Source: Myxococcota bacterium
GTDB taxonomy: Bacteria; Myxococcota_A; Polyangia; Polyangiales; Polyangiaceae
Assembly: GCA_022703255.1 (NCBI GenBank)
Contig: JAKLDZ010000006.1
Coordinates: forward strand, 1 to 37,926
Direction of reading: 5' to 3'
Length of the DNA: 37,926 nt
The translations under genes and the position numbers were made by a program. The notes beneath the pieces were generated by a model, which saw only the letters and a program-made list of their open reading frames with translations, was not told where the DNA came from and did not search any database. Of this stretch, positions 15,836 through 34,073 are shown piece by piece (the stretch's first letter is position 1; each line of letters begins with the position of its first letter).

Positions 15836-17779
15836 ATGTGCGGGATTGCGGGGCTGCTGGGACTCGACGGGGAGAGCTCGGACGCGAGTGCCTTGCAGAG
15901 GATGATCGGAACGCTCGGCCACCGCGGGCCCGATGCTGCGGCAACCCTCGTCCAGGGGCCAATCGGCCTGGCTCACGCCAGGCTGAGCATCGTCGATCTG
16001 AGCGGTGGCGCCCAGCCGATGAGCAACGAGGACGGCACCGTGTGGGTCGTGTTCAACGGCGAGCTGTTCAACCATGTGGAGCTGCGGGAGCGGCTCCTCG
16101 CGCGCGGGCACCGCTTCCGCACCCGCTGCGACACGGAAGTGCTCGTCCATGCGTACGAGGACTTCGGGGAAGCGTGCGTCGAGCTCTTCAACGGCCAATG
16201 GGCGTTCGGCCTCTGGGACGCCCGAGAGGGAAAGCTCGTTCTCAGCAGGGACCGTCTGGGCGTGCGACCTCTCTATTACTCGCGAAGCGCCCGCCGGTTC
16301 GCCTTCGCCTCGGAGATCAAGGCGCTGTTTGCGCTGCCCGAGACGGCGCGGGAGCTCGATCTGCGCGGACTCGATCAGCTGTTCACGTTCTGGTCGGTCG
16401 TGCCGCCGCGCACGGTCTTCCGGGACATCCTGCAGGTTCCGCCGGGCCATACGCTCGTGGTGACGAGGGCGCGTTCGAGGCTGGAGCGGCATTGGGAGAG
16501 CTCCTACGCTCCAGAGGAGTCGGTCTCCGAGGGCGAGCATGCCGAGCGGCTGCGGGACGCGCTGGTCGAGGCCACCCGGATTCGACTGCGGGCAGACGTC
16601 CCGGTCGGGGCGTATCTCAGCGGAGGACTGGACTCGGCGGTCGTAGCGGCGGTCGTGCGGCAGCACACGGGGGCACGGCTTCGGACGTTCTCGGTGGGGT
16701 TCGAGGATGCGGCCTACGACGAGACGGGGTTTCAGCAGCAGGTGGTCCGGCACCTGGGGGTGGAGCACGCGCATCTGCGGTGCACGGAGCAGGAACTGGG
16801 AACGGTCTTTCCGCGCGTGGTATGGCACGCCGAGTCACCCACGGTGCGATGCGCACCGGCGCCGATGTTCTTGCTGTCGAAGCTTGCACACGAATGCGGC
16901 TTCAAGGTCGTCCTCACGGGAGAGGGCTCGGACGAGGTGCTCGGCGGATACGACATCTTCAAGGAGGCGAAGATTCGACGCTTCTGGGCTGCCCATCCGA
17001 ACTCGAGGCTGCGTCCTCTGCTGCTGCGCAGGCTCTACCCTTACATGACAGCCTTGCACGCACAGCCGGACGAGTTCCTGCGGAGGTTCTTCCACGTCCG
17101 ACCGGAGGACCTCGACAGCCCGTTCTTCTCGCACCTTCCGAGGTGGAGCGTGACCGCGGGAATCAAGCGCATGTACTCGGGCGCGGTGCAGTCGGCACTC
17201 GATGGCTTCGATGCCCGGGACGAGCTGCGCGCAGCGCTCCCCGAGGGGTACGAGCGATGGGACCCGTTCCAGCGGGCGCAGTTTCTCGAGATGGGCCTTC
17301 TGCTGCCCGGATACCTTCTCTCCACCCAAGGGGATCGAATGGCCATGGCCCACTCGGTCGAGGCTCGCCACCCCTTCCTGGATCCCGGCGTGGTCGAGGT
17401 CGGCTCGCGCATTCCCTCGCGCCTCAAGATGCGCGCGCTCGACGAGAAGTACCTGCTCAAGAAGGCGGTGTCGGACCTGATTCCGCCGTTCCTCATGAGC
17501 CGCCCGAAACAACCGTACCGCGCTCCGGACGTTGGGCCGTTTTTCGTCGCGCACGAGGGCCGCGCCCGCTTCGCCTGGGTCGATGACGTCTGCTCGGAGC
17601 GAAGCATCGAGAGGGCGGGCGTGTTCGACCCCGTTGCCGTGTCCAGACTCCTTTCCAAGCTCCGGCGCGAGCAGGCGGTCGGCGCGAGGGATGGCATGTC
17701 GCTGGTGGCGGTCCTGTCCACTCAGCTTCTCGTGGAGCACTTCATCCAGCGGAGTCCCAAGGCAGGCCCGGCGCTCTGA
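15836..17779 (+). CDS. Asparagine-synthase-like amidotransferase of the polysaccharide locus
   Basis: The start is set at ATG 15836 because Cys2 (MCGIAG) must become the N-terminal nucleophile of the glutaminase domain; GGAGAGG lies seven bases upstream. The 647-residue protein has the class II glutamine amidotransferase half (GHRGPDA about 29, HARLSIVDLS, NGELFNH about 74, TEVL), then the synthetase half with the PP-loop SGGLDSAV (about 261) and TGEGSDEVLGGY (about 360). All catalytic motifs look intact. AsnB makes asparagine, but paralogues in exopolysaccharide and exosortase loci are thought to amidate a cell-surface precursor; the context here (NadE-like gene, two hydrolases, phosphodiesterase) favours that. 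A housekeeping asparagine synthetase remains possible. Confidence 0.85.
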   Translation: MCGIAGLLGLDGESSDASALQRMIGTLGHRGPDAAATLVQGPIGLAHARLSIVDLSGGAQPMSNEDGTVWVVFNGELFNHVELRERLLARGHRFRTRCDTEVLVHAYEDFGEACVELFNGQWAFGLWDAREGKLVLSRDRLGVRPLYYSRSARRFAFASEIKALFALPETARELDLRGLDQLFTFWSVVPPRTVFRDILQVPPGHTLVVTRARSRLERHWESSYAPEESVSEGEHAERLRDALVEATRIRLRADVPVGAYLSGGLDSAVVAAVVRQHTGARLRTFSVGFEDAAYDETGFQQQVVRHLGVEHAHLRCTEQELGTVFPRVVWHAESPTVRCAPAPMFLLSKLAHECGFKVVLTGEGSDEVLGGYDIFKEAKIRRFWAAHPNSRLRPLLLRRLYPYMTALHAQPDEFLRRFFHVRPEDLDSPFFSHLPRWSVTAGIKRMYSGAVQSALDGFDARDELRAALPEGYERWDPFQRAQFLEMGLLLPGYLLSTQGDRMAMAHSVEARHPFLDPGVVEVGSRIPSRLKMRALDEKYLLKKAVSDLIPPFLMSRPKQPYRAPDVGPFFVAHEGRARFAWVDDVCSERSIERAGVFDPVAVSRLLSKLRREQAVGARDGMSLVAVLSTQLLVEHFIQRSPKAGPAL

Positions 17780-17812
17780 TCCGTTCCAACGCTCGTCGGC
17801 GGAGACCTACCC

Positions 17813-18802
17813 ATGCACAGCCCCTTCTCACGAGACATGCTTTTGATCGACCCAGCAGTCGAAACCCGGCGAATCGTCGCGTCGATCACCGAGTCGGTCT
17901 TCGGCTTCCTGCGGCGCAGAGGCGCGGTCGTCGCGGTCTCGGGCGGCATCGACTCCAGCGTGGTTGCCGCGCTGTGCGTTCGCGCTTTCGGCCGCGAGAG
18001 GGTGCTGGCCTTGATGCTGCCGGAGTCCGAGTCCTCCGACGACACCCGGCGGATGAGTCGTTTGCTGGTAGACTCGCTGCGGACTCCGTTCGTCGAGGAG
18101 GACATCTCCCCGGCGCTGCGCGCAATCGGCTGCTACTCCCGGCGCGACGAGGCTGTCAAGGCGGTGATACCTGCGTACGGCCCGGGCTGGACGTGCAAGC
18201 TGGTGCTCCCTCCGTTGCTGCTCGACGGCGAGCGGCTTCGGGTCTTCTCGGTGGTTGCGCGGTCCCCGCACGGGGTGGAGACGACGGCGCGGCTGACGCC
18301 CGAGGCGTACTTCGGAGTGGTGGCCAGCACCAACTTCAAGCAACGGACGCGCAAGATGCTGGAGTACTATCACGGCGATCGGCTGCACTTCGCGGTGGCC
18401 GGGACCGCGAACCGGCTCGAGCACGAGCTCGGGTTCTTCGTGAAGAACGGCGACGGCTCCGCCGACTTCAAGCCGATCGCGCACCTGTACAAGACCCAGG
18501 TGTACCGGATCGGCAGGTACCTCGAGCTGCCCGAGGAGATCCTGGGGCGCGCCCCGACGACCGACACGTATTCTTTGTCGCAGAGTCAGGAAGAGTTCTA
18601 CTTCTCGATTCCGTACGAGCAGATGGATCTGTGTCTGTTTGCGAGGAATCACGATGTTTCGGCGGGCGATGCAGCGGAGGCCATCGGGCTCACGCGCGAT
18701 CAGGTGGAGCGGGTGTATCGCGACATCGACGCGAAGCGCGCGCAGGCGCGCTACCTGCTCGCCCAGCCCGAGCTGGTGGACCCGGGCGTGGGAGGGCGGT
18801 AA
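17813..18802 (+). CDS. NAD-synthase-like ATP pyrophosphatase in polysaccharide locus
   Basis: The 329-residue protein belongs to the NadE family: PP-loop VSGGIDSSVV (about 42), GTANRLEHELGFF (about 196), NGDGSADFKPIAHLYKTQVY (about 209) and a C-terminal PTTDTYSLSQSQEEF (about 248) in the position of NadE's 'PTADLWxxQTDE'. Unlike ordinary short NadE it has a roughly 45-residue insert (about 120-165), and the conserved 'QTDE' is replaced by 'QSQEE'. NadE amidates nicotinate adenine dinucleotide. Being translationally linked between an AsnB-like gene and two hydrolases suggests a specialised amidation or adenylation of another carboxylate. GGAG stands eight bases before the ATG. The stop overlaps the next ATG by one base (TAATG). 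Confidence 0.8.
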   Translation: MHSPFSRDMLLIDPAVETRRIVASITESVFGFLRRRGAVVAVSGGIDSSVVAALCVRAFGRERVLALMLPESESSDDTRRMSRLLVDSLRTPFVEEDISPALRAIGCYSRRDEAVKAVIPAYGPGWTCKLVLPPLLLDGERLRVFSVVARSPHGVETTARLTPEAYFGVVASTNFKQRTRKMLEYYHGDRLHFAVAGTANRLEHELGFFVKNGDGSADFKPIAHLYKTQVYRIGRYLELPEEILGRAPTTDTYSLSQSQEEFYFSIPYEQMDLCLFARNHDVSAGDAAEAIGLTRDQVERVYRDIDAKRAQARYLLAQPELVDPGVGGR

Positions 18803-19638
18803 TGGGATTGCACCGGATGGCCCCGCCGTGTCCGGAGCAGCAGGGCTTCCTGGACTCCGGTGCTTCGCGCATCTACTGGGTCCGGCACCCTTCCCCCGGG
18901 CCCCCGAAGGCCCGGGTCGTCCTCGCCGGACCCTTCGGACTCGAGCGCGAGACGTCGTACATCACCTGGGTCCGTTGGGCCCGCACCCTCGCGTCGCGCG
19001 GTTTCGAATGCATCCACTTCGACTTCGCCGGGCACGGCGAGAGCGAAGGCTCATTCGAGGACTTGTCCCTGTCCGATTGGTCCTCGGACCTCAGCACCGT
19101 GGTCGCCCGGGCTGCGCAGGGGTTCGACGGACCGTTGTTGCTGTGCGGTTTGCGGTTCGGCGCGCTGCTGGCGGCTCGCGAGTTCCGGAACCGGCGCGCT
19201 TGGGCAATGCTGCTGTGGGATCCTCCCGCGGACGCCCGAGCGATGCTTTCCGAAGTCCTGCGCAGGAAGCTCGCCTCCGACGTATTCGAGGGGACCCTCG
19301 GAGAACGCGGGTCACGAGAAACCTATGTGCTCGAGCTGGAGGCGGGGCGTCCCGTCGAAGTCGAGGGCTTTCGTTGGTCGCACCGGCTCTGGTGCGATGC
19401 GGCCCGGTGGTCGCTCGATCTACCTGGCCCGAGCGACGATCGGTTCTGGGTCGTGGTGCGGCTCGATGGTCACGGGCGACGCACCTGCACGGAGCGGGAT
19501 CACACGGCGGTCGTGTCGATCGCGAGGCCTGCGTTCTGGGGGCACGATCCGCTGGTTCTGGCGCAGGTTTCGGAGCTGTTCGATCACGGCGCCGCGTTCC
19601 TCGAGCGAGCCGTGGAAGCGTGGAGGCGACGCGGATGA
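18802..19638 (+). CDS. Alpha/beta-hydrolase-fold protein lacking nucleophile (GLRFG elbow)
   Basis: The 278-residue protein begins at the ATG overlapping the NadE-like stop codon. It has the alpha/beta-hydrolase core: ARVVLAGPFGLE, a YITWVRWARTLASRGF helix, then FDFAGHGES near 73. At the nucleophile elbow (about 116-120) the sequence is GLRFG, so Arg replaces the usual Ser. From memory, this 'GLRxGALLA' elbow is typical of the 'hydrolase 2' proteins of exosortase-associated exopolysaccharide loci, and the C-terminal 'ARPAFW' fits too. Either another residue acts as nucleophile or the fold binds rather than cleaves. It is coupled on both sides, so it likely acts with the next gene on the same compound. 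Probably cytoplasmic, with no signal peptide. Confidence 0.75.
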   Translation: MGLHRMAPPCPEQQGFLDSGASRIYWVRHPSPGPPKARVVLAGPFGLERETSYITWVRWARTLASRGFECIHFDFAGHGESEGSFEDLSLSDWSSDLSTVVARAAQGFDGPLLLCGLRFGALLAAREFRNRRAWAMLLWDPPADARAMLSEVLRRKLASDVFEGTLGERGSRETYVLELEAGRPVEVEGFRWSHRLWCDAARWSLDLPGPSDDRFWVVVRLDGHGRRTCTERDHTAVVSIARPAFWGHDPLVLAQVSELFDHGAAFLERAVEAWRRRG

Positions 19639-20534
19639 GAGGGCTGTTCACGCTGGAGACGGGGAGCTTCCGACTTGTCGGGACGCACCATGTGCCGAGC
19701 TGGTCGGCGCGGACCTGGGGAGTTGGCGTTGTGCTCTTCAACGCGGGGCACCTGCCCAGGGATGGGCACGCGATGATCAACGTTCGCGCCGCGGAGCGCC
19801 TCGCCGCGTCGGGCTTTCACGCGTTCCGGGTGGACCTCCCGGGTCTCGGCGATTCGCCCGGGGAGCTTCCGGTCCACACCGAGGAGCTGTTCCGCCTCGT
19901 TCATCAGGGATGGCACCTCGCGCCCGCGCAGGCTGCGATTCGGGAGCTGCAGCGCCTCCACGGAATCCGCTCCTTCGTCGTGGGAGGCCTGTGTGGTTCG
20001 GCAGGGACCGCCTTGCTCCTGGCTGCGGCCGACCCGACGTTGGTGGCTGGCGTGGTCGCCATGGAGCTCGAGCTGTTTCACGCCTTCAGGGACGTCCCGC
20101 TGTCGCCTCGAGAAGCGGTGTTCTCCCGCGCAGCGTGGCTTCGGCTGCTCACGGGTCACGGGAGGCGGAGCTGGCGGGTGCCTCGCGCGGCCGAATCCCT
20201 GCTTCCGCTGTTCGGCTCCGCGCTGCTCCCCGCTCACACGGATCGCAAGCTGGTCCACGCGCTGGTCGAGCTCGACCGGCGTCGGACTCCGGTGCTCGTC
20301 GTGATGGCCGGCGGCAAGCGCCGGGAGATCTTCTACGACCAGGTTTGCAGGGCTGTCCTTGGCGCAACGGCTCGCCCCTGGCGTGCACACGTGTCCGTGG
20401 CTGGAACGAATCACATCTTCACGACCGGGGGCGGCCAACGCATCGCTCTCGACGCGATCGAGCGGTGGGCGCTTCGGCTTGCTGAAGAGTCGCATGGGAC
20501 GGCTCCTGCGGCCGGGCATCGGTCCCGCCCTTGA
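19635..20534 (+). CDS. Alpha/beta-hydrolase-fold protein with Cys elbow (GLCGS)
   Basis: The ATG overlaps the upstream stop by four bases (ATGA). The 299-residue protein shows VDLPGLGDSPGE near 65, the elbow GGLCGSAGTALLLA near 117, and a C-terminal SVAGTNHIFT near 256 that could supply the catalytic His. The elbow position holds Cys, as in dienelactone-hydrolase-like enzymes, and resembles the 'GLCDxASAALL' elbow I recall in exosortase-system 'hydrolase 1' proteins. Cytoplasmic. Substrate unknown; a thioester or an acylated carrier lipid or sugar is plausible. The two hydrolases, the NadE-like enzyme and the amidotransferase form one translational unit. Confidence 0.75.
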   Translation: MRGLFTLETGSFRLVGTHHVPSWSARTWGVGVVLFNAGHLPRDGHAMINVRAAERLAASGFHAFRVDLPGLGDSPGELPVHTEELFRLVHQGWHLAPAQAAIRELQRLHGIRSFVVGGLCGSAGTALLLAAADPTLVAGVVAMELELFHAFRDVPLSPREAVFSRAAWLRLLTGHGRRSWRVPRAAESLLPLFGSALLPAHTDRKLVHALVELDRRRTPVLVVMAGGKRREIFYDQVCRAVLGATARPWRAHVSVAGTNHIFTTGGGQRIALDAIERWALRLAEESHGTAPAAGHRSRP

Positions 20535-20561: not shown

Positions 20562-21734
20562 GTGGAGCATCGAATCGCCATGGGCAAACGCCTTGCGATC
20601 GCGATGTTCGTGGATGCCTGCGGCTGGGACGTGGTCTCAACGCGGCCCTGGTTCATGCAGTCGTGCTTCGAGCGCCGCAGCGTCAAGTCGATCTTCGGGT
20701 TCTCCTCTGCGTGCGTTCCGTCGATTCTCACGGGGCGGATGCCCCGCGACAACGATCACTGGTCCTCGTTCTACTACTCACCGACGACGAGCCCGTTCGG
20801 CCCGCTGAAAGTGCTCTCGCACTTGCCCCGCGCGCTGGTGGACCGCGGTCGGGTCAGGCGTCTGCTGTCGAAGGCGATTGCTTCGGCCTACGGCTACACG
20901 GGCTACTTCCAGATCTACAACCTGCCGTTCGGAGCGCTTCCCTTGTTCGACTACGCAGAGAAGCGAGACATCTTCGTGCCGGGAGGGATCAACCGGGGAA
21001 CGAGCATTTTCGACGACCTCGTCGGGATGGGGATCGCACACCACGTTGCGGACTGGCGTACGGGGGAGGCGGAGAGCTTCGGGTCGCTGGGCAGGTCGGT
21101 TCGGGAGGGGACGATCCGGTTTGCGTTCATGTACACGAGCAAGCTCGACGCGTTGATGCACGAGCACACGCGGGACTCGGCCCTGGTGGACGAGCGGCTG
21201 CGCTGGTACGAATCGCAGATGCGGGAGGTTCTGCGGGAAGCCTACACGCGATACGACGAAGTGCGTGTTGCGGTGTTTTCGGATCACGGGATGGCGACGG
21301 TACGGAGGGTCGTGGATCTGGTCCCGCGTGTGACGCGGCTGAGTCTGCGGTACGGTCGAGACTACGCGGGGGTGTACGATTCGACGATGATGCGCTTCTG
21401 GTTTCTGGGGTCGGGAGCCAGGGAGCGGATCGTGGGCGCGCTTGGGGATACGGGCACGGGCAGGTGGTTGGAGACGAGCGACCTTTCGAAGCTCGGTGTG
21501 TGGTGGCCCGACAACCGGTTTGGAGACGCGGTCTTCGCGCTCGAGCCCGGGGTGCTCCTGAATCCGAGTCACATGGGAACGGTTCCCGTGGCGGGGATGC
21601 ACGGATACCGCCCGGACGACCCGGACTCCGATGCCGCGCTGCTGACGGACTTCGCCGCCGTCGCTCATGTGGAGCAGATCACGGATCTGTACGGGCTCAT
21701 GCGTGAGATGGCGCTCTGGTCGTCGCGCGGATGA
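20562..21734 (+). CDS. Alkaline-phosphatase-superfamily phosphodiesterase (NPP-like)
   Basis: The protein (390 residues from GTG 20562, or 384 from ATG 20580, either possible) has the metal-ligand pattern of nucleotide pyrophosphatase/phosphodiesterases: FVDACGWD at the N-terminus, SACVPSILTGRMP with the likely nucleophile, TSKLDALMHEHT, VFSDHGM and GMHGYRPDD in the right order. No signal peptide is evident, unlike many secreted relatives, so it may act in the cytoplasm on a lipid-linked or nucleotide-linked intermediate. The gene follows the second hydrolase by 27 bases and ends block A; it converges on the STAS gene 12 bases on. Specificity cannot be read from the sequence. Confidence 0.8.
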   Translation: MEHRIAMGKRLAIAMFVDACGWDVVSTRPWFMQSCFERRSVKSIFGFSSACVPSILTGRMPRDNDHWSSFYYSPTTSPFGPLKVLSHLPRALVDRGRVRRLLSKAIASAYGYTGYFQIYNLPFGALPLFDYAEKRDIFVPGGINRGTSIFDDLVGMGIAHHVADWRTGEAESFGSLGRSVREGTIRFAFMYTSKLDALMHEHTRDSALVDERLRWYESQMREVLREAYTRYDEVRVAVFSDHGMATVRRVVDLVPRVTRLSLRYGRDYAGVYDSTMMRFWFLGSGARERIVGALGDTGTGRWLETSDLSKLGVWWPDNRFGDAVFALEPGVLLNPSHMGTVPVAGMHGYRPDDPDSDAALLTDFAAVAHVEQITDLYGLMREMALWSSRG

Positions 21735-21746
21735 CCTCCTTGGGGG

Positions 21747-22211
21747 TCACGCCGCCAGCGTCGATACCGCCGCCTCCGAGCTCGAATAGACGTCGAAGAT
21801 CTGGAAGAGCTGAGTGACCTCGAAGACGTCGCGCACGAACTCGTTGAGGGAGCTCACGACGATGCGTGTGCCGCGCGGCTTCCTGCGCTGCTCGGCGATG
21901 AGGGCCGAGATTCCGAGACTGTCGAGGAAGACGACGTTGGACATGTCGATGACGACGGTGGAGGCGCCTCGATTCCATGCTGCCGAGAGCTGGGGACGGA
22001 TCGTCAGGCAGGTGCTGCCGTCGAGACGGCGCATCCGGATGCGAACGACTTCCACCCTCCCTGGCACGGCCGGGCGTCGCGATGGGACCCCGCTTCCGAG
22101 GTCGGCTTCGGTTCCGCTCGACTGCTCGAGGTCGGAGTCGGAATGTGTCCTTCCCATCACGCGAGAGGTCAACTCCATCCAAGCACTGGGGACGCTCTTC
22201 ACGGTGAACAT
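21747..22211 (-). CDS. STAS-domain protein, anti-sigma factor antagonist-like
   Basis: I start it at ATG 22211, which has a very strong GGAGGGGGG upstream; the open frame extends 68 residues further without coding character. The 154-residue product has a non-conserved N-terminal 45 residues, then a STAS domain (VEVVRIRMRRLDGSTCLTI through VVIDMSNVVFLDSLGISALI). The Asp-Ser-Leu-Gly near residue 98 occupies the phosphorylation-site loop of SpoIIAA/RsbV proteins and keeps a Ser. A final helix follows (DVFEVTQLFQIFDVYSS). Such proteins release sigma factors or other targets from RsbW-type kinases; an RsbW-like gene lies 4 kb away at 26067. It is last in the minus-strand block after the flippase, but with its own 246-base leader. 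Confidence 0.85.
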   Translation of the reverse strand: MFTVKSVPSAWMELTSRVMGRTHSDSDLEQSSGTEADLGSGVPSRRPAVPGRVEVVRIRMRRLDGSTCLTIRPQLSAAWNRGASTVVIDMSNVVFLDSLGISALIAEQRRKPRGTRIVVSSLNEFVRDVFEVTQLFQIFDVYSSSEAAVSTLAA

Positions 22212-22457
22212 GGTACGTTCCCCCCTCCTGCGCGCGGGAGCCTCGGGCCCCGAGTTCCGTCCGGGGTCCCGCGGTCTCCTGCTCGCCAATCCCCGACGTC
22301 GGGTGTCCGACGATGTAATCATTTTCGTGCACCACCCCCGGACGTCAAGGTTCGTCTCGGCGTACTGCCATCTTTGCGTCGTATTCGCACGCAGCACCGA
22401 CTCAACCGTTCGCAACGCGGAGAGCGGTGCCGCGCTCCGGCAGGCAACGGGTCCGCT
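22212..22457 (-). promoter_or_regulatory. Leader region of the STAS gene with two inverted repeats
   Basis: This 246-base gap between the flippase stop and the STAS start holds CTCGGG-C-CCCGAG (22242-22254, about 31 bases upstream of the start) and the perfect 12-base palindrome CCCGACGTCGGG (22292-22303, about 81 bases upstream). On the STAS strand TTGACG occurs further upstream with AATGAT 19 bases later, a weak promoter. The palindrome could be an operator and the inner repeat a leader hairpin. No gene is seen here. Confidence 0.4.
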
Positions 22458-23969
22458 TCATCCGCTCCTGCGCTGCGCTTCGGATGCCCGATACGCAATG
22501 GGCGGCTCGGCGGCAATCGGGAGCGTGACCGCCCCCACGCCGCGGCTGCGCGCAAAACCCAGCACAACACGGCGGAGGGCCGCGCCCGATGCGGCCAGAC
22601 CGAGGGATGTCGCGATCAGCAGGACCGCAACCACGTGCATGCCGGTCGTATCGAGCAGCGCCGCGCTGACGCCGGAAACGGCGACCGTGATTGCCGGCGG
22701 CCTCACGGCGGAGACGACCTGCGACCAGGTCCAGCGCTCCGCTTTCCTGGTCGCGCGCCACACCAGGGTTGTGCTCACGACGGCGCCGACGGCGGTGCCT
22801 GCGGCGACGGCCCACGGGCCGAAGAGCCATCCGCCGGTCACGGACGCAGCGACATTGGACAGCGAAGCGATCATGACGAACCGGGCGGCGGCCATGGGGT
22901 TGCCGCCGAGCGTCATGGCGGAGGTAGCGACGGTTTCGACGCCGATCAGAATGGCGGCGGCGGCATACCAGGCGAGGGCTTGTCCAAGGATGGGCTGGTC
23001 GACGGCGGGACCGGCCCAGGAGACGATCAGGGGGCGACCGGCGACTCCGAGGGCGGCGAGGGGTGCACCCGCAATGGTCCCGAGGACCACGGTGCCGAGT
23101 GCGATGGTCGATTGCCGGTTGTCGGCCCTGGTGCCCAACCTGGGCACCAGAGCTGCACTGAGCTGCTTGACCAGCGTGAACCCCTGGTCGACGATCCGCT
23201 GCGCGACCGAGTAGGCGCCGATTGTGGCCAGGTTCGCGATTCTCTCCAACACGATCAGGTCGAGGCGAACGGCGAGCACGACTGCGAAGTTGGTCAGAAG
23301 TCCGGCGCCCGCGACCCGGACGATCTCGCGTCGCTGCTCGCGGTTCGGGAATCCTGAGGAGCGGACGCCGTCGCGAACGGCCCACGCGCTGGCCGCAGCC
23401 TCCACGAGGGCGCCTACCGCAAAACCCGAGGCGGGTGCCCGAAGCTTCTGGCCCAGGGAGAGTCCGAGGATCGTAACGAGGAGCTGGATTCCCACGGCTG
23501 CCGCTCGCGCCCAGGCGAGCTTGACCAGATATCCCTGCCCCTGGGCATAGGAGCGCAGAGGCTGGCTGACCGCGGCAATGGCGCCGCCGACGACGGCGAT
23601 GATCACGGCACTGCGGGCGTCGGATTCGAACTCCCGCGGCAAGCGGTTTGCCACGCTCCACAACCACGCGACCGCAGCGAACGTGAACGGGATGCTCACG
23701 ACCGCAGTCACTGCGGCTGCGAGATGCGCCACGGAGCGCGCGTAGGGAGCGTGTTTGCCCGTGGCCGCGCGGAGCGTCGCAGTGTTCAACCCCAGGTCGC
23801 AAACGCTGATCAAGAACGCGACCGTTCCGAGGAAGCTCCAGAACCCCAGGCGCTCGGCGCCGAGGGTGCGGGCGAGGATGGGGACGGTGATGATGGCGGC
23901 GACGACGGTGACCGCATGCCGTGCGACCGAAGCCACCGCATCCTTGGCCAGTCCCTTGGTCGCGCTCAT
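22458..23969 (-). CDS. wzx: Polysaccharide flippase, Wzx/MOP superfamily
   Basis: ATG 23969 is chosen because the protein then begins just before the first membrane helix (VASVARHAVTVVAAIITVPI), the usual N-terminus of Wzx proteins; the longer open frame is not supported. The 503-residue product has about 12-14 hydrophobic segments and family features such as LARTLGAERLGFWSFLGTVAFL and VAQRIVDQGFTLVKQLSAALVPRLG. MOP-family flippases move undecaprenyl-diphosphate-linked repeat units across the inner membrane. It follows the fused glycosyltransferase by 41 bases, so the two are likely co-transcribed. Teichoic-type or O-antigen flippase roles cannot be separated by sequence. Confidence 0.88.
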   Translation of the reverse strand: MSATKGLAKDAVASVARHAVTVVAAIITVPILARTLGAERLGFWSFLGTVAFLISVCDLGLNTATLRAATGKHAPYARSVAHLAAAVTAVVSIPFTFAAVAWLWSVANRLPREFESDARSAVIIAVVGGAIAAVSQPLRSYAQGQGYLVKLAWARAAAVGIQLLVTILGLSLGQKLRAPASGFAVGALVEAAASAWAVRDGVRSSGFPNREQRREIVRVAGAGLLTNFAVVLAVRLDLIVLERIANLATIGAYSVAQRIVDQGFTLVKQLSAALVPRLGTRADNRQSTIALGTVVLGTIAGAPLAALGVAGRPLIVSWAGPAVDQPILGQALAWYAAAAILIGVETVATSAMTLGGNPMAAARFVMIASLSNVAASVTGGWLFGPWAVAAGTAVGAVVSTTLVWRATRKAERWTWSQVVSAVRPPAITVAVSGVSAALLDTTGMHVVAVLLIATSLGLAASGAALRRVVLGFARSRGVGAVTLPIAAEPPIAYRASEAQRRSG

Positions 23970-24010
23970 GGGGTTCCGTTTCGGTTGGAGGCGAATCCAG
24001 TGTTTGACAG

Positions 24011-25984
24011 CTATGCACCGCGCTCTCGAATCGCCTCCAGGGCCATTGCCACGCTGTGCGTGTCCGTGGATGAACAGCGCAGCAACCTGGAGGTGGCTTG
24101 TCTCGCCGCAAGAAGGTCCGGTGAATAGGCGATCAGCACCGCACTCCGTGCCAGCACCTCCCTGGGGTGCACGCCGCACTGTCTCCAGGGAACCACGCCG
24201 TGGGCGAATGCCCGGAGTCCGGAAAGCCAGCGCCCGAGGACGGCGACGTCGTCGATTTCCGGGAACCGCGGCCTGCGCGCGAACGCGTACGCGAACGGAT
24301 CCCTGCACACCGTCTCTCCCAGCCGGAACGCCTCCAGATGCGCGTGGATCGGCCAGAGCGCCGCGACCGCCGCCTCCAGGCCGTCACGCGTCTCGACGTG
24401 CTCGTGCGGTGCGTGTCTGTAGCGCACGGCGTCGGAATATCGACTCGCGAGCTCGGCGACCCAGGGCGCACCGACCGACGAAAGGCGTTGCAGGGCCGCG
24501 ATTCGCTCTGCCGACCGGGCACCGTAGTCGTCGACGGAGATCAGCACGGCGTCCCCGAGCGCGAGCCACGCCTTGGCCACGTGTCGGGCGGCCCTCCTCC
24601 CCTCCGGGGGGCCGTCGCGCTCGAAGCCAAGCCGCGACAGGGCGATTCCCGTACTGCGGTTGGCAAGCAACCTGCCGACTTCTGCCCGTCTCACCGAACG
24701 TGTCGAGAGCCGGGCGAGCGGCGCTGTCACCGAGGCGTCTCCCCAGAGCACGCGAACCCCCCGTATCGCGGCGTCGGCCCAGAGCAGCTTTCCTCTCGTG
24801 GATTCGAGCTCGCTTCGACTCACGCACCACACGTCGACGACGGCGTCGGCCACCTCCGAGGCGCGGCGCGAAAGCCGTTCGCACTCTCGCCGCAGGCGAC
24901 GTGCCTGGGCATCGGTATCCGCGATCGCGACCAGGTCGAGGTCGTTGTGAATGACGAACCGCCCGCGGCGAAGCTCCACGGCGCCCTCACCGTACGCGAA
25001 GCCACCGAGGAGCAGCAGGGCTTCTGCGCGGCCACGCAGCTCCTGCGCCAGCGTTGCGGTGGCGAGCTCGATCGACCGCTTCGCGGCGAGCTCCGTGGCC
25101 GTCTCACGTTGAATCGTGAAGCCGACGTCCTGGGCACGCTGGTTTCGATCCCTTGGAAGCAATCGCTGGGAGGCGCCGACCGTTCTTCCGCGCCATCGAG
25201 CGGCTTGCTCCAGCACCCTTCTCCGTGCGACACTCGCTTCGACCACTCCCGCGCCGGCGTCGCGGACGAGTTGGGCGAACAGTGGCGCAGCAAAACCGCG
25301 CACTACACCCGGGGCACCGATCCGGAAAATCGAGGCGTCGGCTTCCCCTTCACCGAACATCCTCCTCCATCTCTGCGCGGCATCGTACTCGTGGGAGTGC
25401 TCGACCACGGCGTCGGGAACATACCGAATCGTTCTCCCCAGAACCCGCACCCTGCGCGTCCAGTCCACGTCCTCGCTGAACCGGAGCGCCTCGTCGAATC
25501 CGACGACCTCCCAAACGTCGCGTCGAATGGCGCTCGCCGCCATGCTGAAGAAGTGGACCAGACCGTTGCCTTCCCGGCTCGCGGGGAAGGCCCGGGCGTA
25601 ATCGGCTCTCGTGGCCGGCGTCGCGTCGAGACGCGGCACCTGTCTGCCGAACGCGGCGGCGGCTCCGCTCTCGCACACCTCGACGAGGCGTGTCACGGCG
25701 TCTTGCGACAACGGCACGGCATCGGCATTGACGAAAGCCACAACCTCGCTGTCGGTCTGCCGCATTGCATCGTTGAGCACCTTGCCCGGGACGTATTTCG
25801 GGGACCGGCTCGACACGACCTGCACACCCGCCCGGACAGCCTCGTCGATCGATCCATCCGTGGACCCGGAGTCGAAGACTCGAACGCGGAGGCGTGGGTC
25901 CTGCCCAAGCACGCGCAGGGTGCGTGTCACGTGCGGCATTTCGTTGAGGCAACGAACGACGACATCGACGCGGTGGGCGCGCAT
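24011..25984 (-). CDS. GT2 glycosyltransferase fused to a nucleotidyltransferase-like domain
   Basis: The first 240 residues are a GT-A family 2 glycosyltransferase: VDVVVRCLNEMPHVTRTL, FDSGSTDGSIDEA, FVNADAVPL at the DXD position, and EDVDWTRRVRVLG. This resembles rhamnosyltransferase-type enzymes of repeat-unit assembly. Residues about 320-425 look like a pol-beta/MNT-type nucleotidyltransferase: LLLLGGFAYGEGAVE (the helical Gly-Gly/Gly-Ser motif), FVIHNDLDLVAIAD (metal Asp pair) and VDVWCVSRSEL. The remaining 230 residues are helical. Total length is 657, about twice a normal GT2. I know of no common role for this combination; it may regulate or nucleotidylate a partner. GAAGG precedes the ATG by five bases. 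It is divergent from the RsbW-like gene. Confidence 0.8.
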   Translation of the reverse strand: MRAHRVDVVVRCLNEMPHVTRTLRVLGQDPRLRVRVFDSGSTDGSIDEAVRAGVQVVSSRSPKYVPGKVLNDAMRQTDSEVVAFVNADAVPLSQDAVTRLVEVCESGAAAAFGRQVPRLDATPATRADYARAFPASREGNGLVHFFSMAASAIRRDVWEVVGFDEALRFSEDVDWTRRVRVLGRTIRYVPDAVVEHSHEYDAAQRWRRMFGEGEADASIFRIGAPGVVRGFAAPLFAQLVRDAGAGVVEASVARRRVLEQAARWRGRTVGASQRLLPRDRNQRAQDVGFTIQRETATELAAKRSIELATATLAQELRGRAEALLLLGGFAYGEGAVELRRGRFVIHNDLDLVAIADTDAQARRLRRECERLSRRASEVADAVVDVWCVSRSELESTRGKLLWADAAIRGVRVLWGDASVTAPLARLSTRSVRRAEVGRLLANRSTGIALSRLGFERDGPPEGRRAARHVAKAWLALGDAVLISVDDYGARSAERIAALQRLSSVGAPWVAELASRYSDAVRYRHAPHEHVETRDGLEAAVAALWPIHAHLEAFRLGETVCRDPFAYAFARRPRFPEIDDVAVLGRWLSGLRAFAHGVVPWRQCGVHPREVLARSAVLIAYSPDLLAARQATSRLLRCSSTDTHSVAMALEAIRERGA

Positions 25985-26066
25985 GGCGCCTTCATAGGAC
26001 CCGCACGGCAGACCCGGAACCCATGGCTGGCCACTGTTCGTCGCCGGATCTACGTACCATGCACCG

Positions 26067-26633
26067 TTGGTCCATCATCCGGGGGGAGGCTTGGAGCGCA
26101 CGTTCGTGATTCCCGCACGCATCGGAGGTCTCGTCGGCCACGCAGCGCGGATCGTCGAGGCGATGGGAGACGGCTATCGTCGGGGCCTGGTACTCTCCGC
26201 GGTCCACGAGGCACTGACCAACGCGGTCATCTACGGAGCGCTGCGCATACCAGCGTCCGAGCGAGGCCGAGACGTGGACGAGCTTCTCGGGCGGATTCTC
26301 GCGAGGGAAGCGACGGAGCCGGAGGCGGTGGTGCATGCGGCGGTGATGAAGCTCGGTGACGGTTCGGGCGACGCGGTGGTGAGGGTATCGGACTGTGGGC
26401 CCGGATTCGACTGGAGGTCGTGGCTCCGGTTCCGGCGTCAGGTCGCGTCACCTTCTGTGTCGTGGTCCAACGTGCCCACCTGGGGCCGTGGACTGGTCAT
26501 CATGCAGGCCGGGGCCCGTGCGATGTGGTGGAACGAGCAGGGCAACGAGGTCTCGCTTCGCTTCTCGGTGCGGGAAGGGGGCGATTGTTGCGCCAGTGAG
26601 CGATCGAGCGGTGGACGCGCCCGCGGTGGTTGA
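26067..26633 (+). CDS. RsbW/SpoIIAB-like GHKL ATPase (anti-sigma or signalling kinase)
   Basis: The 188-residue protein is a stand-alone HATPase of the anti-sigma-factor kinase type. It has an N box HEALTNAVIYGAL (about 47), G1 box DCGPGFD (about 109) and G2 box GRGLVIM (about 140), with the usual RsbW order and no histidine-kinase domain. The exact start is unresolved: TTG 26067, TTG 26091 just after GGGGGGAGGC, or GTG 26106 with GGAG nine bases upstream; the first strand (RTFVIPA) argues against the last. It is divergent from the GT2 fusion gene and 30 bases before the initiating transferase. A STAS protein is encoded 4 kb away, suggesting a partner-switching pair. Neither a PP2C phosphatase nor a sigma factor is in the window, so the target is unknown. 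Confidence 0.85.
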   Translation: MVHHPGGGLERTFVIPARIGGLVGHAARIVEAMGDGYRRGLVLSAVHEALTNAVIYGALRIPASERGRDVDELLGRILAREATEPEAVVHAAVMKLGDGSGDAVVRVSDCGPGFDWRSWLRFRRQVASPSVSWSNVPTWGRGLVIMQAGARAMWWNEQGNEVSLRFSVREGGDCCASERSSGGRARGG

Positions 26634-26829
26634 GCGGGTTGGTGTGTCCGAGTTGGAGAGGCGATGCCGCTGGCGCTCGGGGGGATTGCGCTCGGAGTTG
26701 GATTCTCCCAAGTGCTCGGAAGGCGGAGTGCACGCGGAGGTGTTCCGCGGTCCGGGGGGCGAATGCGGAGCATGGGGGGTGATTGCGGAAACGCGTCGAG
26801 CGTACCGCCTGCTGTTGCGGGCGGGCTAG
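26596..26829 (+). CDS. Possible small protein overlapping the sugar transferase 5' end
   Basis: A GTG-started frame of 77 codons runs from inside the RsbW-like gene to 26829. Over 26634-26829 its third positions are more G/C-rich than those of the frame used by the annotated N-terminus of the next gene (my hand count is about 76% versus 64%). The predicted product is mixed charged and Cys-containing with no recognised motif. If real, the sugar transferase must start later, near 26867. This is a low-confidence call recorded because the two readings exclude each other. Confidence 0.25.
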   Translation: MSDRAVDAPAVVERVGVSELERRCRWRSGGLRSELDSPKCSEGGVHAEVFRGPGGECGAWGVIAETRRAYRLLLRAG

Positions 26830-27494
26830 AGCGGGCCCTTGCTGGGGTATCGCGGCTGAGGACGGTGGCGCGATTGGGCGTGACGGTGGGGGTTGCGCCC
26901 GTGGTGAGACGAGCGTTCGACCTGGCGGTCGGGTGTACGGGGCTAGCCGCGGCGGCGCCGGTCGTGCTGACGGCGGCGGCGCTGGTCAAGCTGACCTCGC
27001 CCGGGCCGGCATTTTTCACGCAGGTGAGGGTAGGGCGACACGGAGCTCCGATTCGCGTGTACAAGCTCCGCACGATGTACGTGGACGCGGAAACGCGGCT
27101 CGCGTCGCTGATGCACCTCAACGAGTGCTCGGGTGGAGTCACGTTCAAGATCCGGAGGGACCCTCGGATCACGCGGGTGGGACGTTATCTGCGCAGGTAC
27201 AGCATCGACGAGCTTCCGCAGCTCTGGAACCTGGTGAACGGGACGATGACGACCTTTGGTCCGCGGCCTCCGTTGCCTCGCGAGGTAGCGCGGTACGGTG
27301 CGTTGGAGCGCCGCAGGCTCGAAGTCAAGCCTGGGCTCACCTGCCTGTGGCAGGTATCGGGACGGAGCGATCTGTCCTTCCACCAGCAGGTCGCATTGGA
27401 TCTCGAGTACATCGACACGTCCACGTTGCGCCTCGACGCGGACATCCTGGTTCGGACGGTACCGGCGGTGCTCACGGGCAGAGGTGCGTATTGA
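26664..27494 (+). CDS. Initiating sugar-phosphate transferase (polyprenyl-phosphate sugar-1-P transferase)
   Basis: The conserved bacterial sugar transferase core is complete. RRAFDLAVGCTG opens a hydrophobic reentrant helix, then SPGPAFFTQVRVGRHG (about 110), YKLRTM (about 133), IDELPQLWNLVNG (about 180), FGPRPPLP (about 197) and KPGLTCLWQVSGRSDLSF (about 220). It ends at TVPAVLTGRGAY, the standard C-terminus. These enzymes place the first sugar phosphate on undecaprenyl phosphate; the sugar (glucose or galactose are most common) cannot be read. The first 75 residues from ATG 26664 are atypical for this small family, and the true start may be nearer 26867 (see the small overlapping frame). 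It is coupled to the next gene by a TTGA overlap. Confidence 0.88.
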   Translation: MPLALGGIALGVGFSQVLGRRSARGGVPRSGGRMRSMGGDCGNASSVPPAVAGGLERALAGVSRLRTVARLGVTVGVAPVVRRAFDLAVGCTGLAAAAPVVLTAAALVKLTSPGPAFFTQVRVGRHGAPIRVYKLRTMYVDAETRLASLMHLNECSGGVTFKIRRDPRITRVGRYLRRYSIDELPQLWNLVNGTMTTFGPRPPLPREVARYGALERRRLEVKPGLTCLWQVSGRSDLSFHQQVALDLEYIDTSTLRLDADILVRTVPAVLTGRGAY

Positions 27495-28732
27495 CTGCGA
27501 GGGCCTTCATCCTTGGCTCGGACAAGGCTGACTCCACGGCCGATCTCGCGCGTCCCCTGGCCGGGGCACCGCTGCTCGTTCGACAGCTCGAGTGGCTGGC
27601 CGCCGCGGGAATCGAGGAGGTCGCGGTCAATCGAGTCGCGACGACACCGCTTCCGTCGGAGCTCTCGTGCGACGAGCTGTGTTCGGTCGGTCTGAAGGTG
27701 TTGTGGATTCCGTCGGGTTCTCCTCTCGGCGTGCGGGAGCTCGCGGACCGCGTCGGTTCCCACGAAAGGCCGGTGGTCGTGGTCCCCCACGGCGTTCTTG
27801 GCGCGGCCTCGCTCGGCGCAGTCTATTCGGATGCCGAAGCGTCGTCGGCGGACCTCGTGGTCGGGGAGTCCCCGTTGCGGGTTGCGATCACGCATCTCGA
27901 CGGCGCGGAGCACGCGCGCAGGGAGCAGCGCATCGAGGGGTGGCTCTGTCTGGTGGACTCGGAGGCAGCGGCTCACGCGCTGGCAGAGGAGGTGCTCTCG
28001 GCGACGCGCCAGGGGATTGTGGTTCGCGGAACCCAGGTGTCGCCGGGGATCTGGCGTGCGCGCGGGGCCATCGCCGCGGAGACCGCCGTGCTTCGTCCTC
28101 CGTGCTACCTCGGCCGGGGATGCTTCGTCTCGGAAGGGGCCGAGGTCGGCCCTGGCGCGGTCCTCGGGGAACGCAGCATCGTGGAGTCCCAGGCGCGGGT
28201 CATTCACGCACGCATCGCACCGGGTGTCGTGGTGGGCCAGGGTGTCGTGGTGGAGCGCGCGTGCGCATTTCCCGGGAGGCTGGTTCGTCACGCGGGGCGG
28301 GAGTTGCCAATCGAGGATCCGCTGCTTCTCGGGATGCGGGGCAAGACACCGGCGTGGGCGCTCCGGCTTGCCGCCGCGGTCGCGCTGAGCATAGCGGGAC
28401 CCTTTGCTGCGCTGACGGCTACCGAGCGAGTCCGGGTTTTCCGCAGGCTGGCCCGGGTGGTGGAGGGGTCGGGCAGATGGGTCGGAGTGCGAGACGAGCA
28501 GGATCCGGACGGGGTGGTGCTCGACGTGCTGTCGCTGCTGGTTCCACCGGACGCGCACGACGAGGAGTTGCAGGCGGCGCGGGCATTGTACTCGCGCACG
28601 AAGTCGCCGGGACTCGACGTCCGCCTCGTGGCCGGCTTGTTGTTTGGGAATCACGGGCAAGGGTCCCGGGAAGGCGAGAGGCACGCACGATGGAACCCCG
28701 AGAAATACCGCTCGAGCACAGGGCGCGGCTGA
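27491..28732 (+). CDS. Degenerate sugar nucleotidyltransferase with beta-helix and sugar-transferase-like tail
   Basis: TTG 27491 overlaps the preceding TGA (TTGA), with AGAGGT just upstream. The 413-residue protein starts like a sugar-phosphate nucleotidyltransferase (RAFILGS, then PLAGAPLLVRQLEWLAAAGIEEVAVNRV), but the nucleotide-binding GGxGTRLxPLT and the later Lys are missing, so catalysis is doubtful. Residues about 200-256 are left-handed beta-helix hexapeptides (GAEVGPGAVLGERSIVESQA). The tail (about 290-400) has one hydrophobic segment and then a region recalling the C-terminal part of sugar-phosphate transferases (RLARVVEGSGRWVGVRDEQ, ALYSRTKSPGLDVRLVAGLL). A regulatory or scaffold role is inferred. 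Confidence 0.65.
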   Translation: MTARAFILGSDKADSTADLARPLAGAPLLVRQLEWLAAAGIEEVAVNRVATTPLPSELSCDELCSVGLKVLWIPSGSPLGVRELADRVGSHERPVVVVPHGVLGAASLGAVYSDAEASSADLVVGESPLRVAITHLDGAEHARREQRIEGWLCLVDSEAAAHALAEEVLSATRQGIVVRGTQVSPGIWRARGAIAAETAVLRPPCYLGRGCFVSEGAEVGPGAVLGERSIVESQARVIHARIAPGVVVGQGVVVERACAFPGRLVRHAGRELPIEDPLLLGMRGKTPAWALRLAAAVALSIAGPFAALTATERVRVFRRLARVVEGSGRWVGVRDEQDPDGVVLDVLSLLVPPDAHDEELQAARALYSRTKSPGLDVRLVAGLLFGNHGQGSREGERHARWNPEKYRSSTGRG

Positions 28733-29748
28733 GGGATGTGGCGAGGGGCAGGGCGCGGATCGTCGGGGCGAGGACGCGGATCGGGCGCAGGGATCTCGGG
28801 TTGATGCCGGGGGTCATCTCGCCCTACGAGCTGCGCACGAGGCTGGGCCTTCGCTACGGAGATCCTCCGATCGAGGAGGCGCGCTACGAACGCCGGCGGT
28901 CGGGAGTGACCGACGCGAAGCTCGTCGTCCGGTGGGCATTCGTCCACGTGGTCTCCAGTCCCCTGACCGCGCGCGAGACACGGGAGCGTCGGTCGAGATT
29001 CCGCATCCTGTCGGTGCCGGTCGACTCGGTCGACACCGTCGAGGCGATAGCGAGGATACGCAGCTATCTGCGTGAGAATCGGTCTGCGCGGGTGTTCTTC
29101 TCGCATGCGCACGCGATTACCACCTCGGCCCGGACGCCGCAGCTTCGAGAGGACTTCGAGAACGCCGACCTCGTGCTTCCCGACGGGATCGGCCTGCGTA
29201 TTGGCGCGGCGATCCTCGGGTGGCGGTTGCCGGCGAACGTGAACGGAACCGATCTGGTGCCGGAGCTGCTCCACAGACTTGCGGTGGACGACATTCCGAT
29301 TGCGCTGGTGGGTGGGGATCCCGGGGTCGCGGATCGCGCGTTCGAAGCCTGGCGGGGTTCGACATCCTTGAGGCTGGTGGGAGCGTGGCACGGGTTCATG
29401 CGAGAGCAGGACTACGCCGAGATGGCCCGAGTGGTGGCCTCGGCGGCACCGTGCGTCGCGCTGGTAGCGCTGGGGTCCCCACTGCAGGAGCGGTTTGCCT
29501 TTCGTCACTTCGGTGGGAGCCCCGGGGTGGTAAGCATCACGGTGGGCGGGCTGTTCGACTTCGCCTCCGGGGCGAAGCGACGTGCGCCGCTCGCGTGGAG
29601 GGAGCTGGGACTCGAGTGGGTGTGGCGTCTGGCGCACGAGCCCCGGCGACTTGCGGGACGCTATCTGCTCGGAAACCCGGAGTTCCTCGCGCGCGTCGCC
29701 GTCCAGCGGATCCGGCACGGAAGAGCTGCGGTCAGCGCGGAGGAATGA
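28690..29748 (+). CDS. WecG/TagA/CpsF-type glycosyltransferase with N-terminal sugar-transferase-like fragment
   Basis: ATG 28690 has GAGAGG nine bases upstream and overlaps the preceding gene by 43 bases. The C-terminal 240 residues are a typical GT26 enzyme: TVEAIARIRSYL, NADLVLPDGIGLRIGAAILG (about 157), NVNGTDLVPELL (about 183), VALGSPLQERF and VGGLFDFASGAKRRAP. Family members add the second sugar (for example ManNAc) to an undecaprenyl-diphosphate sugar. The first 90 residues are unusual: RDVARGRARIVGARTR and LMPGVISPYELRTRLG look like the end of a sugar-phosphate transferase (GxxxxVGPRP, PGITGLWQ). Length is 352, against about 240 for a plain family member. The gene converges on the co-polymerase gene with a 17-base overlap. 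Confidence 0.82.
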   Translation: MEPREIPLEHRARLRDVARGRARIVGARTRIGRRDLGLMPGVISPYELRTRLGLRYGDPPIEEARYERRRSGVTDAKLVVRWAFVHVVSSPLTARETRERRSRFRILSVPVDSVDTVEAIARIRSYLRENRSARVFFSHAHAITTSARTPQLREDFENADLVLPDGIGLRIGAAILGWRLPANVNGTDLVPELLHRLAVDDIPIALVGGDPGVADRAFEAWRGSTSLRLVGAWHGFMREQDYAEMARVVASAAPCVALVALGSPLQERFAFRHFGGSPGVVSITVGGLFDFASGAKRRAPLAWRELGLEWVWRLAHEPRRLAGRYLLGNPEFLARVAVQRIRHGRAAVSAEE

Positions 29749-31735: not shown

Positions 31736-31781
31736 GGGATAGCCTTCCCCGCTGGCGAACTTCGAGCCGTGCGTGGGTCCG

Positions 31782-32972
31782 TCAAGCGCCCCCCCGCAGT
31801 TGGCAGGCGTTGCCGAGCAGCGCCACCAGATCATCCACGTACGCATCCAAGGACAGCCGTCGGTCCACGAGCTGCAGCCCATCGGCGACGAGCCGCTCTT
31901 GACGGATCGGATCGCGCATGAGGTCGGCTATTGCGCGAGCGATCGCGGGTCCGGAACAGGCGGGGGCCCGGGCGACGACGGGGCAGGCGTCGAGGAGCTC
32001 TTTTGCGCCACCGAGGGGATAGGCGACGACGTTCACGCCGCAGGCCATGGCTTCCATGTACGTGAGTCCCTGGGGCTCGGCCCACCTGGACAGAAACAGC
32101 GCGACGTCGGAGCTCCGATACACGTCGGCGAGCCGATCGCGCGGCACCAGGCCGAGCCAGCGCACGTCTTCGGCGACACCCAGCGCGACGGATCGATGCG
32201 AGAGCTCGACCTGATAGGGTGCGGAGACGGGCGCACCAGCGAAGGTGAGACGAGCGCGGATGCCGAGGCTGCGCAGGGCCGCGAGAGTTTCGAGGGCCAC
32301 CTCTGGGGCCTTGGTAGGGTGCAGTCTTCCTGCGAAGAGGAGCTCTGGTTGCGACGGAATGCGTCGGAACGGGCGGGGGGAGAAAAGCTTCTGATTGACG
32401 CCCTGCCATCGGACGAGACCGGGGGGAAACCAGGGGACCGCGGTGCGCACGAGGTCGCGCGTGCAAGCGGAGAGGTACAGGACGCGATCGACCGCGACGT
32501 CTCTCCACATGTGCTTGCTCCAGGGTGCGCGGTCCAGGGCTCTGCCGATGCGGCCGCGGAGGCCGGGTCCGTTGCCGGACGCGAAGGCGACGGGCCAGTC
32601 GTCGTTGACGGTCAAGACATACGGGACGGCGAACTCGCGCAGGACGCGGAGAGGCTCGACACCCAATCTCCGGAGACTCATTACCAGCGCTGCGTCCGGG
32701 ACGCCCTCGCTGCGGAGGTGATGGCGCACGGCGGTTGCGTTGTGGACTGCCACGATCAGGTGCCGTGCGCGGTCCTTCCGCGCTTCGGAGCCGAAGGTCC
32801 GGGACAGGCGCAGTATTCGCTGTACCCCCTCTACCGCTTGGCCATCGCCTGACGTAAGAACCGACACTGAATGACCTCGCGACCGGAGCTCATCGACGAC
32901 GTCCTGAGCGAGCAGCTCGTAGCCCCCGAGCACATCGGGAGGGTACAGGTTCGTCAGGATCAGCAGCTTCAT
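31782..32972 (-). CDS. GT4 family glycosyltransferase
   Basis: ATG 32972 begins with the family N-terminus MKLLILTNLYPPDVLGGYE; the frame continues upstream antisense to the export gene but is not coding there. The 396-residue GT-B protein has an acceptor-side glycine loop (GGYELLAQDVVDELRSRGH), LFAGRLHPTKAPEVAL near 212, and the E-x7-E donor motif in EPQGLTYMEAMACG near 299. It likely adds a sugar to the repeat unit from a nucleotide donor on the cytoplasmic face. It is divergent from the wza-like gene across only 39 bases and leads the co-polymerase gene. Confidence 0.88.
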   Translation of the reverse strand: MKLLILTNLYPPDVLGGYELLAQDVVDELRSRGHSVSVLTSGDGQAVEGVQRILRLSRTFGSEARKDRARHLIVAVHNATAVRHHLRSEGVPDAALVMSLRRLGVEPLRVLREFAVPYVLTVNDDWPVAFASGNGPGLRGRIGRALDRAPWSKHMWRDVAVDRVLYLSACTRDLVRTAVPWFPPGLVRWQGVNQKLFSPRPFRRIPSQPELLFAGRLHPTKAPEVALETLAALRSLGIRARLTFAGAPVSAPYQVELSHRSVALGVAEDVRWLGLVPRDRLADVYRSSDVALFLSRWAEPQGLTYMEAMACGVNVVAYPLGGAKELLDACPVVARAPACSGPAIARAIADLMRDPIRQERLVADGLQLVDRRLSLDAYVDDLVALLGNACQLRGGA

Positions 32973-33010
32973 TCGGTCTCCGTGGCCGAGCGCCGGGGGG
33001 AATATTGCGT

Positions 33011-33023
33011 GATGACCGTCATC
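33011..33023. repeat. Short inverted repeat over the wza-like start codon
   Basis: GATGAC-C-GTCATC forms perfect six-base arms and covers the ATG at 33012. It lies at the edge of the 39-base gap between divergent GT4 and export genes. It might be an operator or an mRNA hairpin hiding the start; it might also be chance. Confidence 0.3.
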
Positions 33024-34019: not shown

Positions 34020-34073
34020 GGGCGGTGGCGAGGCGAAGTCGAGCGAGGCAGAGAGAGCGCGCCGCGCGGTGCT

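Follow-up and report, generated by a model that had tools for sequence, protein, structure and literature searches.

Gene content of the locus

The window, meaning the whole stretch of 37,926 bases analyzed here (positions 1-37926 of contig C556, from a myxococcotal genome assembly of 6.29 Mb in 932 contigs that is 73.5% complete), carries a tight run of genes encoding an amidotransferase related to asparagine synthetase (AsnB-like), an enzyme related to nicotinamide adenine dinucleotide (NAD) synthetase (NadE-like) and two proteins of the alpha/beta-hydrolase fold (Hyd2-like and Hyd1-like). A preliminary description of this DNA had presented them as a run of four genes resembling the accessory genes of exosortase A loci. 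The coordinates, frames and junctions that it gave were all verified, and Pfam agreed with the protein kinds that it assigned (PF00733 and PF13537 for the AsnB-like protein, PF02540 for the NadE-like protein and hydrolase-fold matches for the other two). The run is nevertheless not limited to four genes, since a phosphodiesterase gene follows and is conserved together with the module.

15836..17779, + strand: AsnB-like glutamine-dependent amidotransferase, 647 amino acids (TIGR01536, PF00733, PF13537)
17813..18802, + strand: predicted NadE-like PP-loop ATP-dependent amide synthase, 329 amino acids (NF002048, PF02540)
18802..19638, + strand: Hyd2-like alpha/beta-hydrolase-fold protein, 278 amino acids (best family TIGR03101)
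19635..20534, + strand: Hyd1-like alpha/beta-hydrolase-fold protein, 299 amino acids (best family TIGR03100)
20562..21734, + strand: type I phosphodiesterase/nucleotide pyrophosphatase-like protein (PF01663, 34.2 bits)

The AsnB-like gene begins with the ATG at 15836, its stop codon ends at 17779, and 33 bases separate it from the ATG of the NadE-like gene at 17813. A TAATG at 18800-18804 couples the NadE-like gene to the Hyd2-like gene, and an ATGA at 19635-19638 couples the latter to the Hyd1-like gene. All four reading frames are intact and the ATP-loop and glutaminase motifs are retained, the AsnB-like protein bearing the glutaminase cysteine at its N terminus (MCGIAG) together with the ATP loop SGGLDS and scoring 503 bits on TIGR01536, above the general cut-off of 267. 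Because the order AsnB, NadE, Hyd2, Hyd1 and phosphodiesterase recurs in a congener (G081), the run is more than the product of chance. The congener carries the same hydrolases and, at the same relative position, a 64% identical copy of the phosphodiesterase, and genes for a Wzx-like protein, family 2 and family 4 glycosyltransferases (GT2 and GT4) and a deacetylase-like protein are conserved beside its module.

A recurring carrier-protein cassette and its split form

In the neighborhoods of NadE-like genes, both in the same order and across bacteria, genes for an AMP-forming ligase and for a small acyl carrier protein were also constant companions. With profiles built here, and among loci kept as the best 80 matches, which are not an unbiased sample, all four cassette genes lay within 7 kb in 41 of the 50 loci across bacteria that had enough flank and in 21 of the 30 loci of the same order. 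Judged by their record titles, the cassette loci represent at least about a dozen phyla, and some have an exosortase while others do not. The unit had therefore been misdrawn in the preliminary description, the conserved module being the NadE-like and AsnB-like enzymes, the acyl ligase and the acyl carrier protein; the Hyd2-Hyd1 pair accompanies a minority of cassette loci. An alignment of the cassette carriers showed an invariant serine in a DST motif, and the best named family of the cassette ligases was TIGR03098 (501 bits, below the cut-off of 592). Elsewhere, the neighbors of the cassette include sugar transferases, glycosyltransferases, hexapeptide acyltransferases and polysaccharide export proteins. 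The closest NCBI family of the carriers was ACP_for_OlsHI, but an assignment as ornithine-lipid carriers was rejected because their scores, 54-59 bits, stay below its cut-off of 130; the OlsH paper, in which OlsH works without an acyl carrier protein, also counts against it. None of the papers found in a literature search dealt with the cassette as part of polysaccharide loci; a paper on Rubrivivax exopolysaccharide that mentions an asparagine synthase was discarded as a source because its matches to "nadE" came from the author name Nadell. A protein of about 276-340 amino acids also recurs near the cassette (L062:6414-7379, L043:14563-15393, and loci L063 and L083); neither of the two copies scanned matched a Pfam family, and for the L062 copy NCBIfam gave no match either. 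The congener encodes it between Hyd1 and the phosphodiesterase, a place where it is absent in the window.

The NadE-like and AsnB-like genes of the window scored 513 and 967 bits on the profiles built here, which detected neither a carrier nor a ligase in any frame of the window. A carrier hidden between these two genes was also considered and rejected, the gap being of 33 bases and the all-frame search empty. The four cassette genes are thus not together in the window. The rest of the genome, however, contains a cassette-family carrier and ligase as an intact, adjacent pair on another contig (C10).

C10:7160-7444, strand not given: acyl carrier protein of the cassette family (106.5 bits; next-best candidate 21)
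C10:7473-8964, strand not given: AMP-forming acyl ligase, directly after the carrier (assigned by tree grouping)

The C10 ligase grouped with the cassette ligases with a support of 0.998. In the congener, the carrier is retained between the AsnB and NadE-like genes, and the best ligase, which also groups with the cassette ligases, is on another contig. A planctomycete locus (L098; NYXZ01000123.1) shows the order AsnB, carrier, ligase, NadE, Hyd2 and Hyd1 in a single run, and the window has the same set with the carrier and the ligase taken out, whereas this locus of a different phylum is unsplit. Because of the C10 pair, the position of the carrier in the congener and the unsplit planctomycete run, the window is a split form of this six-gene arrangement.

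In a survey of plasmids, the NadE-like gene turned up in Sinorhizobium, Mesorhizobium, Azospirillum and others. On pSymB of Sinorhizobium meliloti the operon order is asnB, acyl carrier protein, acyl ligase and nadE, with the carrier to nadE at 1450582-1453424 on the minus strand in strain 1021. From the plasmid and the gene order, we take this operon to be that of SMb20651 (the carrier) and SMb20650 (the ligase); the original 2009 report on SMb20651 reportedly also lists an asparagine synthetase and a NAD synthetase in its operon. The same profiles find all four proteins, so that the AsnB-like enzyme, the NadE-like enzyme, the carrier and the ligase belong to the same families in both organisms; the differences are that the carrier-ligase pair of the window genome is on another contig and that the window adds the Hyd2-Hyd1 pair, the phosphodiesterase and an adjoining exopolysaccharide locus. 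SMb20650 and SMb20651 are co-transcribed on pSymB, and SMb20650 acylates SMb20651 in Escherichia coli but is no substitute for FadD (2020 paper, PMC7232532); the function of SMb20651 was said to need further investigation (2017 paper, PMC5686131). Taken together, these results indicate that the cassette is widespread and already known, with its function unexplained, and that the window holds a split, hydrolase-bearing variant of it.

Enzyme families and the relation to exosortases

The NadE-like protein belongs to subfamily NF002048, on which it scored 463.7 bits (cut-off 313). Contig-end fragments aside, full-length members of this subfamily scored about 450-536 bits and other NadE proteins at most 77. 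Its structural model (predicted local distance difference test score, pLDDT, 88) was nearest to a NAD synthetase (2e18, Z 28.6) and a nicotinamide mononucleotide (NMN) synthetase (3fiu, Z 28.4), and the fold and the ATP-loop motif are common to all three. The NadE-like protein differs in its distinct family, in a family-specific insertion at about residues 105-165 and in its C-terminal motif, where the HKR of 2e18 aligns with xKR; it keeps most of the ATP-site and substrate-site motifs, at residues that we take to be the canonical NadE site. A separate NadE, mostly in a frame of at least 530 amino acids, was present in at least 44 of 48 relatives carrying the NadE-like gene, the congener included, and no second NadE was found in the 73.5%-complete assembly of the window genome, whose incompleteness may be the reason. 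Because at least 44 of 48 relatives have a separate NadE and because of the gap in score, the NadE-like protein is not likely to be the NAD synthetase of the cell.

The two hydrolase-fold proteins appear to differ in their active sites. The nucleophile position of the Hyd2-like protein is occupied by arginine (GLRFG), and in 11 of 11 aligned proteins it is arginine or glycine, never serine or cysteine; because of this arginine the Hyd2-like protein is probably not a serine hydrolase. The Hyd1-like proteins have a GG(L/F)CG elbow with an invariant cysteine (C120, in GGLCGS, in the window) and a conserved histidine near the C terminus (TNH, H260 in the window), one relative ending at a contig end. 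The Hyd1-like model (pLDDT 79) resembles esterases, lipases and thioesterases, among them DcsB (Z 23.1) and a myristoyl-ACP thioesterase (1tht, Z 20.0). Because of its Cys/His site and its thioesterase-like model, the Hyd1-like protein fits a candidate acyl-thioesterase or acyltransferase, with a fold that is common to many enzymes. The cysteine nucleophile also led us to consider a role like that of polyhydroxyalkanoate synthase, but the fold search returned general esterases, lipases and thioesterases instead, which is not decisive either way.

The resemblance to the accessory set of exosortase A (TIGR03108, TIGR03100, TIGR03101 and the acyl-CoA ligase TIGR03098) is one of protein kind, since this set supplies the nearest named exosortase-system match for the AsnB-like protein, for both hydrolases and for the cassette ligases. 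Membership was rejected, however, as the window proteins scored far under the cut-offs: the AsnB-like protein had 437.4 bits on TIGR03108, the XrtA/PEP-CTERM amidotransferase (cut-off 816.9), the Hyd2-like protein 74.6 bits on TIGR03101, hydrolase 2 of the exosortase A system (202.75), and the Hyd1-like protein 48 bits on TIGR03100, hydrolase 1 of that system (168.45). In contrast, the AsnB of a genuine XrtA locus from the same taxonomic family, used as a positive control (L090; XrtA 311 bits, cut-off 208), reached 1031.9 bits on TIGR03108. By these scores the window proteins are distant homologs, relatives rather than members of the exosortase A families; the preliminary description thus named the nearest exosortase-linked families, and membership of them is not supported. 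The accessory set further differs from the window in that a NadE-like enzyme is central to the cassette and that the window has no exosortase or PEP-CTERM protein.

That absence, also part of the preliminary description, was confirmed above cut-off in the window and extends to the window genome and the congener. The exosortase domain PF09721 had no match in the 73.5%-complete assembly even at an E value of 10 and none in the 92%-complete congener, and PEP-CTERM tails (PF07589) over the cut-off were found in neither, while a control genome (G102) has three. The search thus turned up no exosortase next to the window or in the rest of this incomplete assembly. Within the same order, an exosortase was counted in 7 of the 49 genomes that carry the NadE-like gene and in 13 of the 135 that lack it; among 50 genomes holding related loci, 25 have no exosortase, and one lies at most 10 kb away in 10 of the 50 loci. 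Candidatus Manganitrophus (L133) has an exosortase W (L133:9986-12560; NF038142, 556 bits, cut-off 425) immediately after the NadE-like gene, and locus L068 (genome G077) has an exosortase E/protease fusion (14022-15680; TIGR04162, 204 bits, cut-off 150) placed between AsnB, which it adjoins, and the NadE-like gene, about 4 kb away. Several Nitrospira loci have exosortases similarly close to the cassette. Since exosortase-free genomes are common, the frequencies with and without the NadE-like gene are similar and only 10 of 50 loci have an exosortase nearby, the module is compatible with exosortases yet independent of them.

Proposed function and its alternatives

The gene set adjoins an exopolysaccharide locus, which lies downstream of the module.

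21747..37694, strand mixed or not given: Wzx/Wzy-type exopolysaccharide locus (Pfam matches, gene calls)

This locus encodes a STAS protein, a Wzx-like flippase, a GT2 enzyme, a sugar transferase, WecG, Wzz-like, Wza-like export and Wzy-like proteins, GT4 enzymes and a deacetylase-like protein of the DUF2334 family. With a probability of roughly 45%, the four window genes are the half of a split carrier-protein cassette that carries out amidation and transfer, and for which the acceptor is likely a sugar of the exopolysaccharide or its lipid carrier. The C10 ligase would activate a free carboxylic acid and load it onto the phosphopantetheine arm of the dedicated carrier. The AsnB-like enzyme, which has a built-in glutaminase domain, and its NadE-like partner would each spend ATP to convert a carboxylate to an amide, either on the carrier-bound acyl group or on its acceptor. 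Hyd1, through its Cys-His site, would then remove the acyl amide from the carrier by hydrolysis or, more likely, by transfer, and Hyd2, which has no nucleophile, may be its non-catalytic partner. Because the gene set adjoins the Wzx/Wzy locus, the most likely acceptor would be either a sugar in the repeat unit of the polymer or the lipid carrier of that unit. We infer such a modification of the exopolysaccharide, and the acceptor is the weakest step of the mechanism because the S. meliloti operon stands alone. The preliminary interpretation, a specific amidated or acylated exopolysaccharide modification independent of protein sorting, is thus partly supported: its nearest families, the absence of an exosortase and the polysaccharide neighbor stand, whereas family membership and the unit as drawn do not.

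Several observations weigh against this proposal. None of the cassette members has a known product, substrate or acceptor, and only a minority of cassette loci have the hydrolase pair. The C10 carrier and ligase, being on another contig of a metagenome-assembled genome, could serve other enzymes. The S. meliloti cassette is free-standing near minCDE and away from polysaccharide genes, so the polysaccharide link may be incidental. The identification of its operon with SMb20650 and SMb20651 is based on the plasmid, the gene order and the 2009 report, and the pSymB record used has no locus tags.

The main rival is a carrier-free uronamide function, in which the substrates of the AsnB-like enzyme, and perhaps of the NadE-like one, are uronic acids in the exopolysaccharide, amidated in the manner of WbpS or WbqG; the hydrolases would then be unrelated tailoring enzymes, and the C10 carrier and ligase would serve something else. 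WbpS-type AsnB proteins convert a uronic acid to a uronamide in Porphyromonas gingivalis, Pseudomonas aeruginosa and E. coli O121 (PMC7468200), and like the window gene these amide makers are found in polysaccharide loci; the lack of a local carrier and ligase also fits. Nevertheless, the consulted part of that source mentions no carrier, ligase or NadE-like partner for them, whereas the enzyme is coupled to ligase and carrier throughout the cassette, and in the congener the carrier lies between AsnB and the NadE-like gene. The score far under the TIGR03108 cut-off is a further point against this explanation, which we regard as unlikely, at about one chance in five. The window genes might also no longer act together, the module decaying after the carrier and ligase split off, as their absence from the window would suggest when most relatives keep them together; the four intact frames with their motifs, the intact carrier-ligase pair and the recurrence of the split in the genus, where the best ligase of the congener is likewise on another contig, make this very improbable.

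Ordinary metabolism, with an asparagine synthetase and a NAD synthetase placed in the locus by chance, would agree with the NCBI family names, with the TIGR01536 and TIGR00552 cut-offs, both of which are passed, with the retention of most canonical NadE motifs, and with the incomplete assembly having yielded no other AsnB or NadE. The separate NadE of nearly all relatives, the congener among them, the sharp score gap around NF002048 and the conservation across phyla of an operon with carrier and ligase argue against it, and we consider it improbable. A further reading, as improbable as decay, is a relic of an exosortase A accessory set, with the exosortase either lost or encoded in the quarter of the genome that the assembly lacks. 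It draws on the accessory families being the nearest named ones and on the exosortases W and E directly beside NadE-like cassettes in some relatives, but it is opposed by the failure to find an exosortase in either this genome or the congener, by the half of cassette genomes that have none, by the hardly higher frequency of exosortases with the cassette in the order, and by the AsnB score of 437 bits against 1032 for a true XrtA-locus AsnB.

A broader and more speculative possibility, which we hold to be rather unlikely as a whole, is a stand-alone carrier pathway, separate from polyketide and nonribosomal peptide synthesis and spread over at least about a dozen phyla, in which the paired AsnB/NadE-like system would make an acyl amide from a carrier-bound acid, a hydrolase-fold acyltransferase with a cysteine nucleophile would hand it to an envelope acceptor, and the exosortase A accessory genes would be a specialized offshoot. 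When its genes are annotated as NAD synthase and asparagine synthase, the cassette goes unrecognized, although many phyla have it, as does the model symbiont S. meliloti. Its main interest is that it connects two unsolved systems: treated as one carrier-linked unit with the exosortase A accessory genes as relatives, it turns two open questions, the cargo of SMb20651 and the product of those accessory genes, into a single testable one.

Three further genes near the module were observed. A glycoside hydrolase of family 9 with a CelD_N domain (12999-15719, + strand) lies directly upstream and is conserved nearby in the congener. A small STAS-domain protein (21747-22163, - strand), encoded between the module and the flippase gene and also present in the congener, is a possible regulator. 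Finally, the GT2 glycosyltransferase at 24011-25984 (- strand), whose Pfam match is limited to the N-terminal GT2 part, has a long C-terminal extension that looks nucleotidyltransferase-like by eye in the stretch HNDLDLVAIADT.

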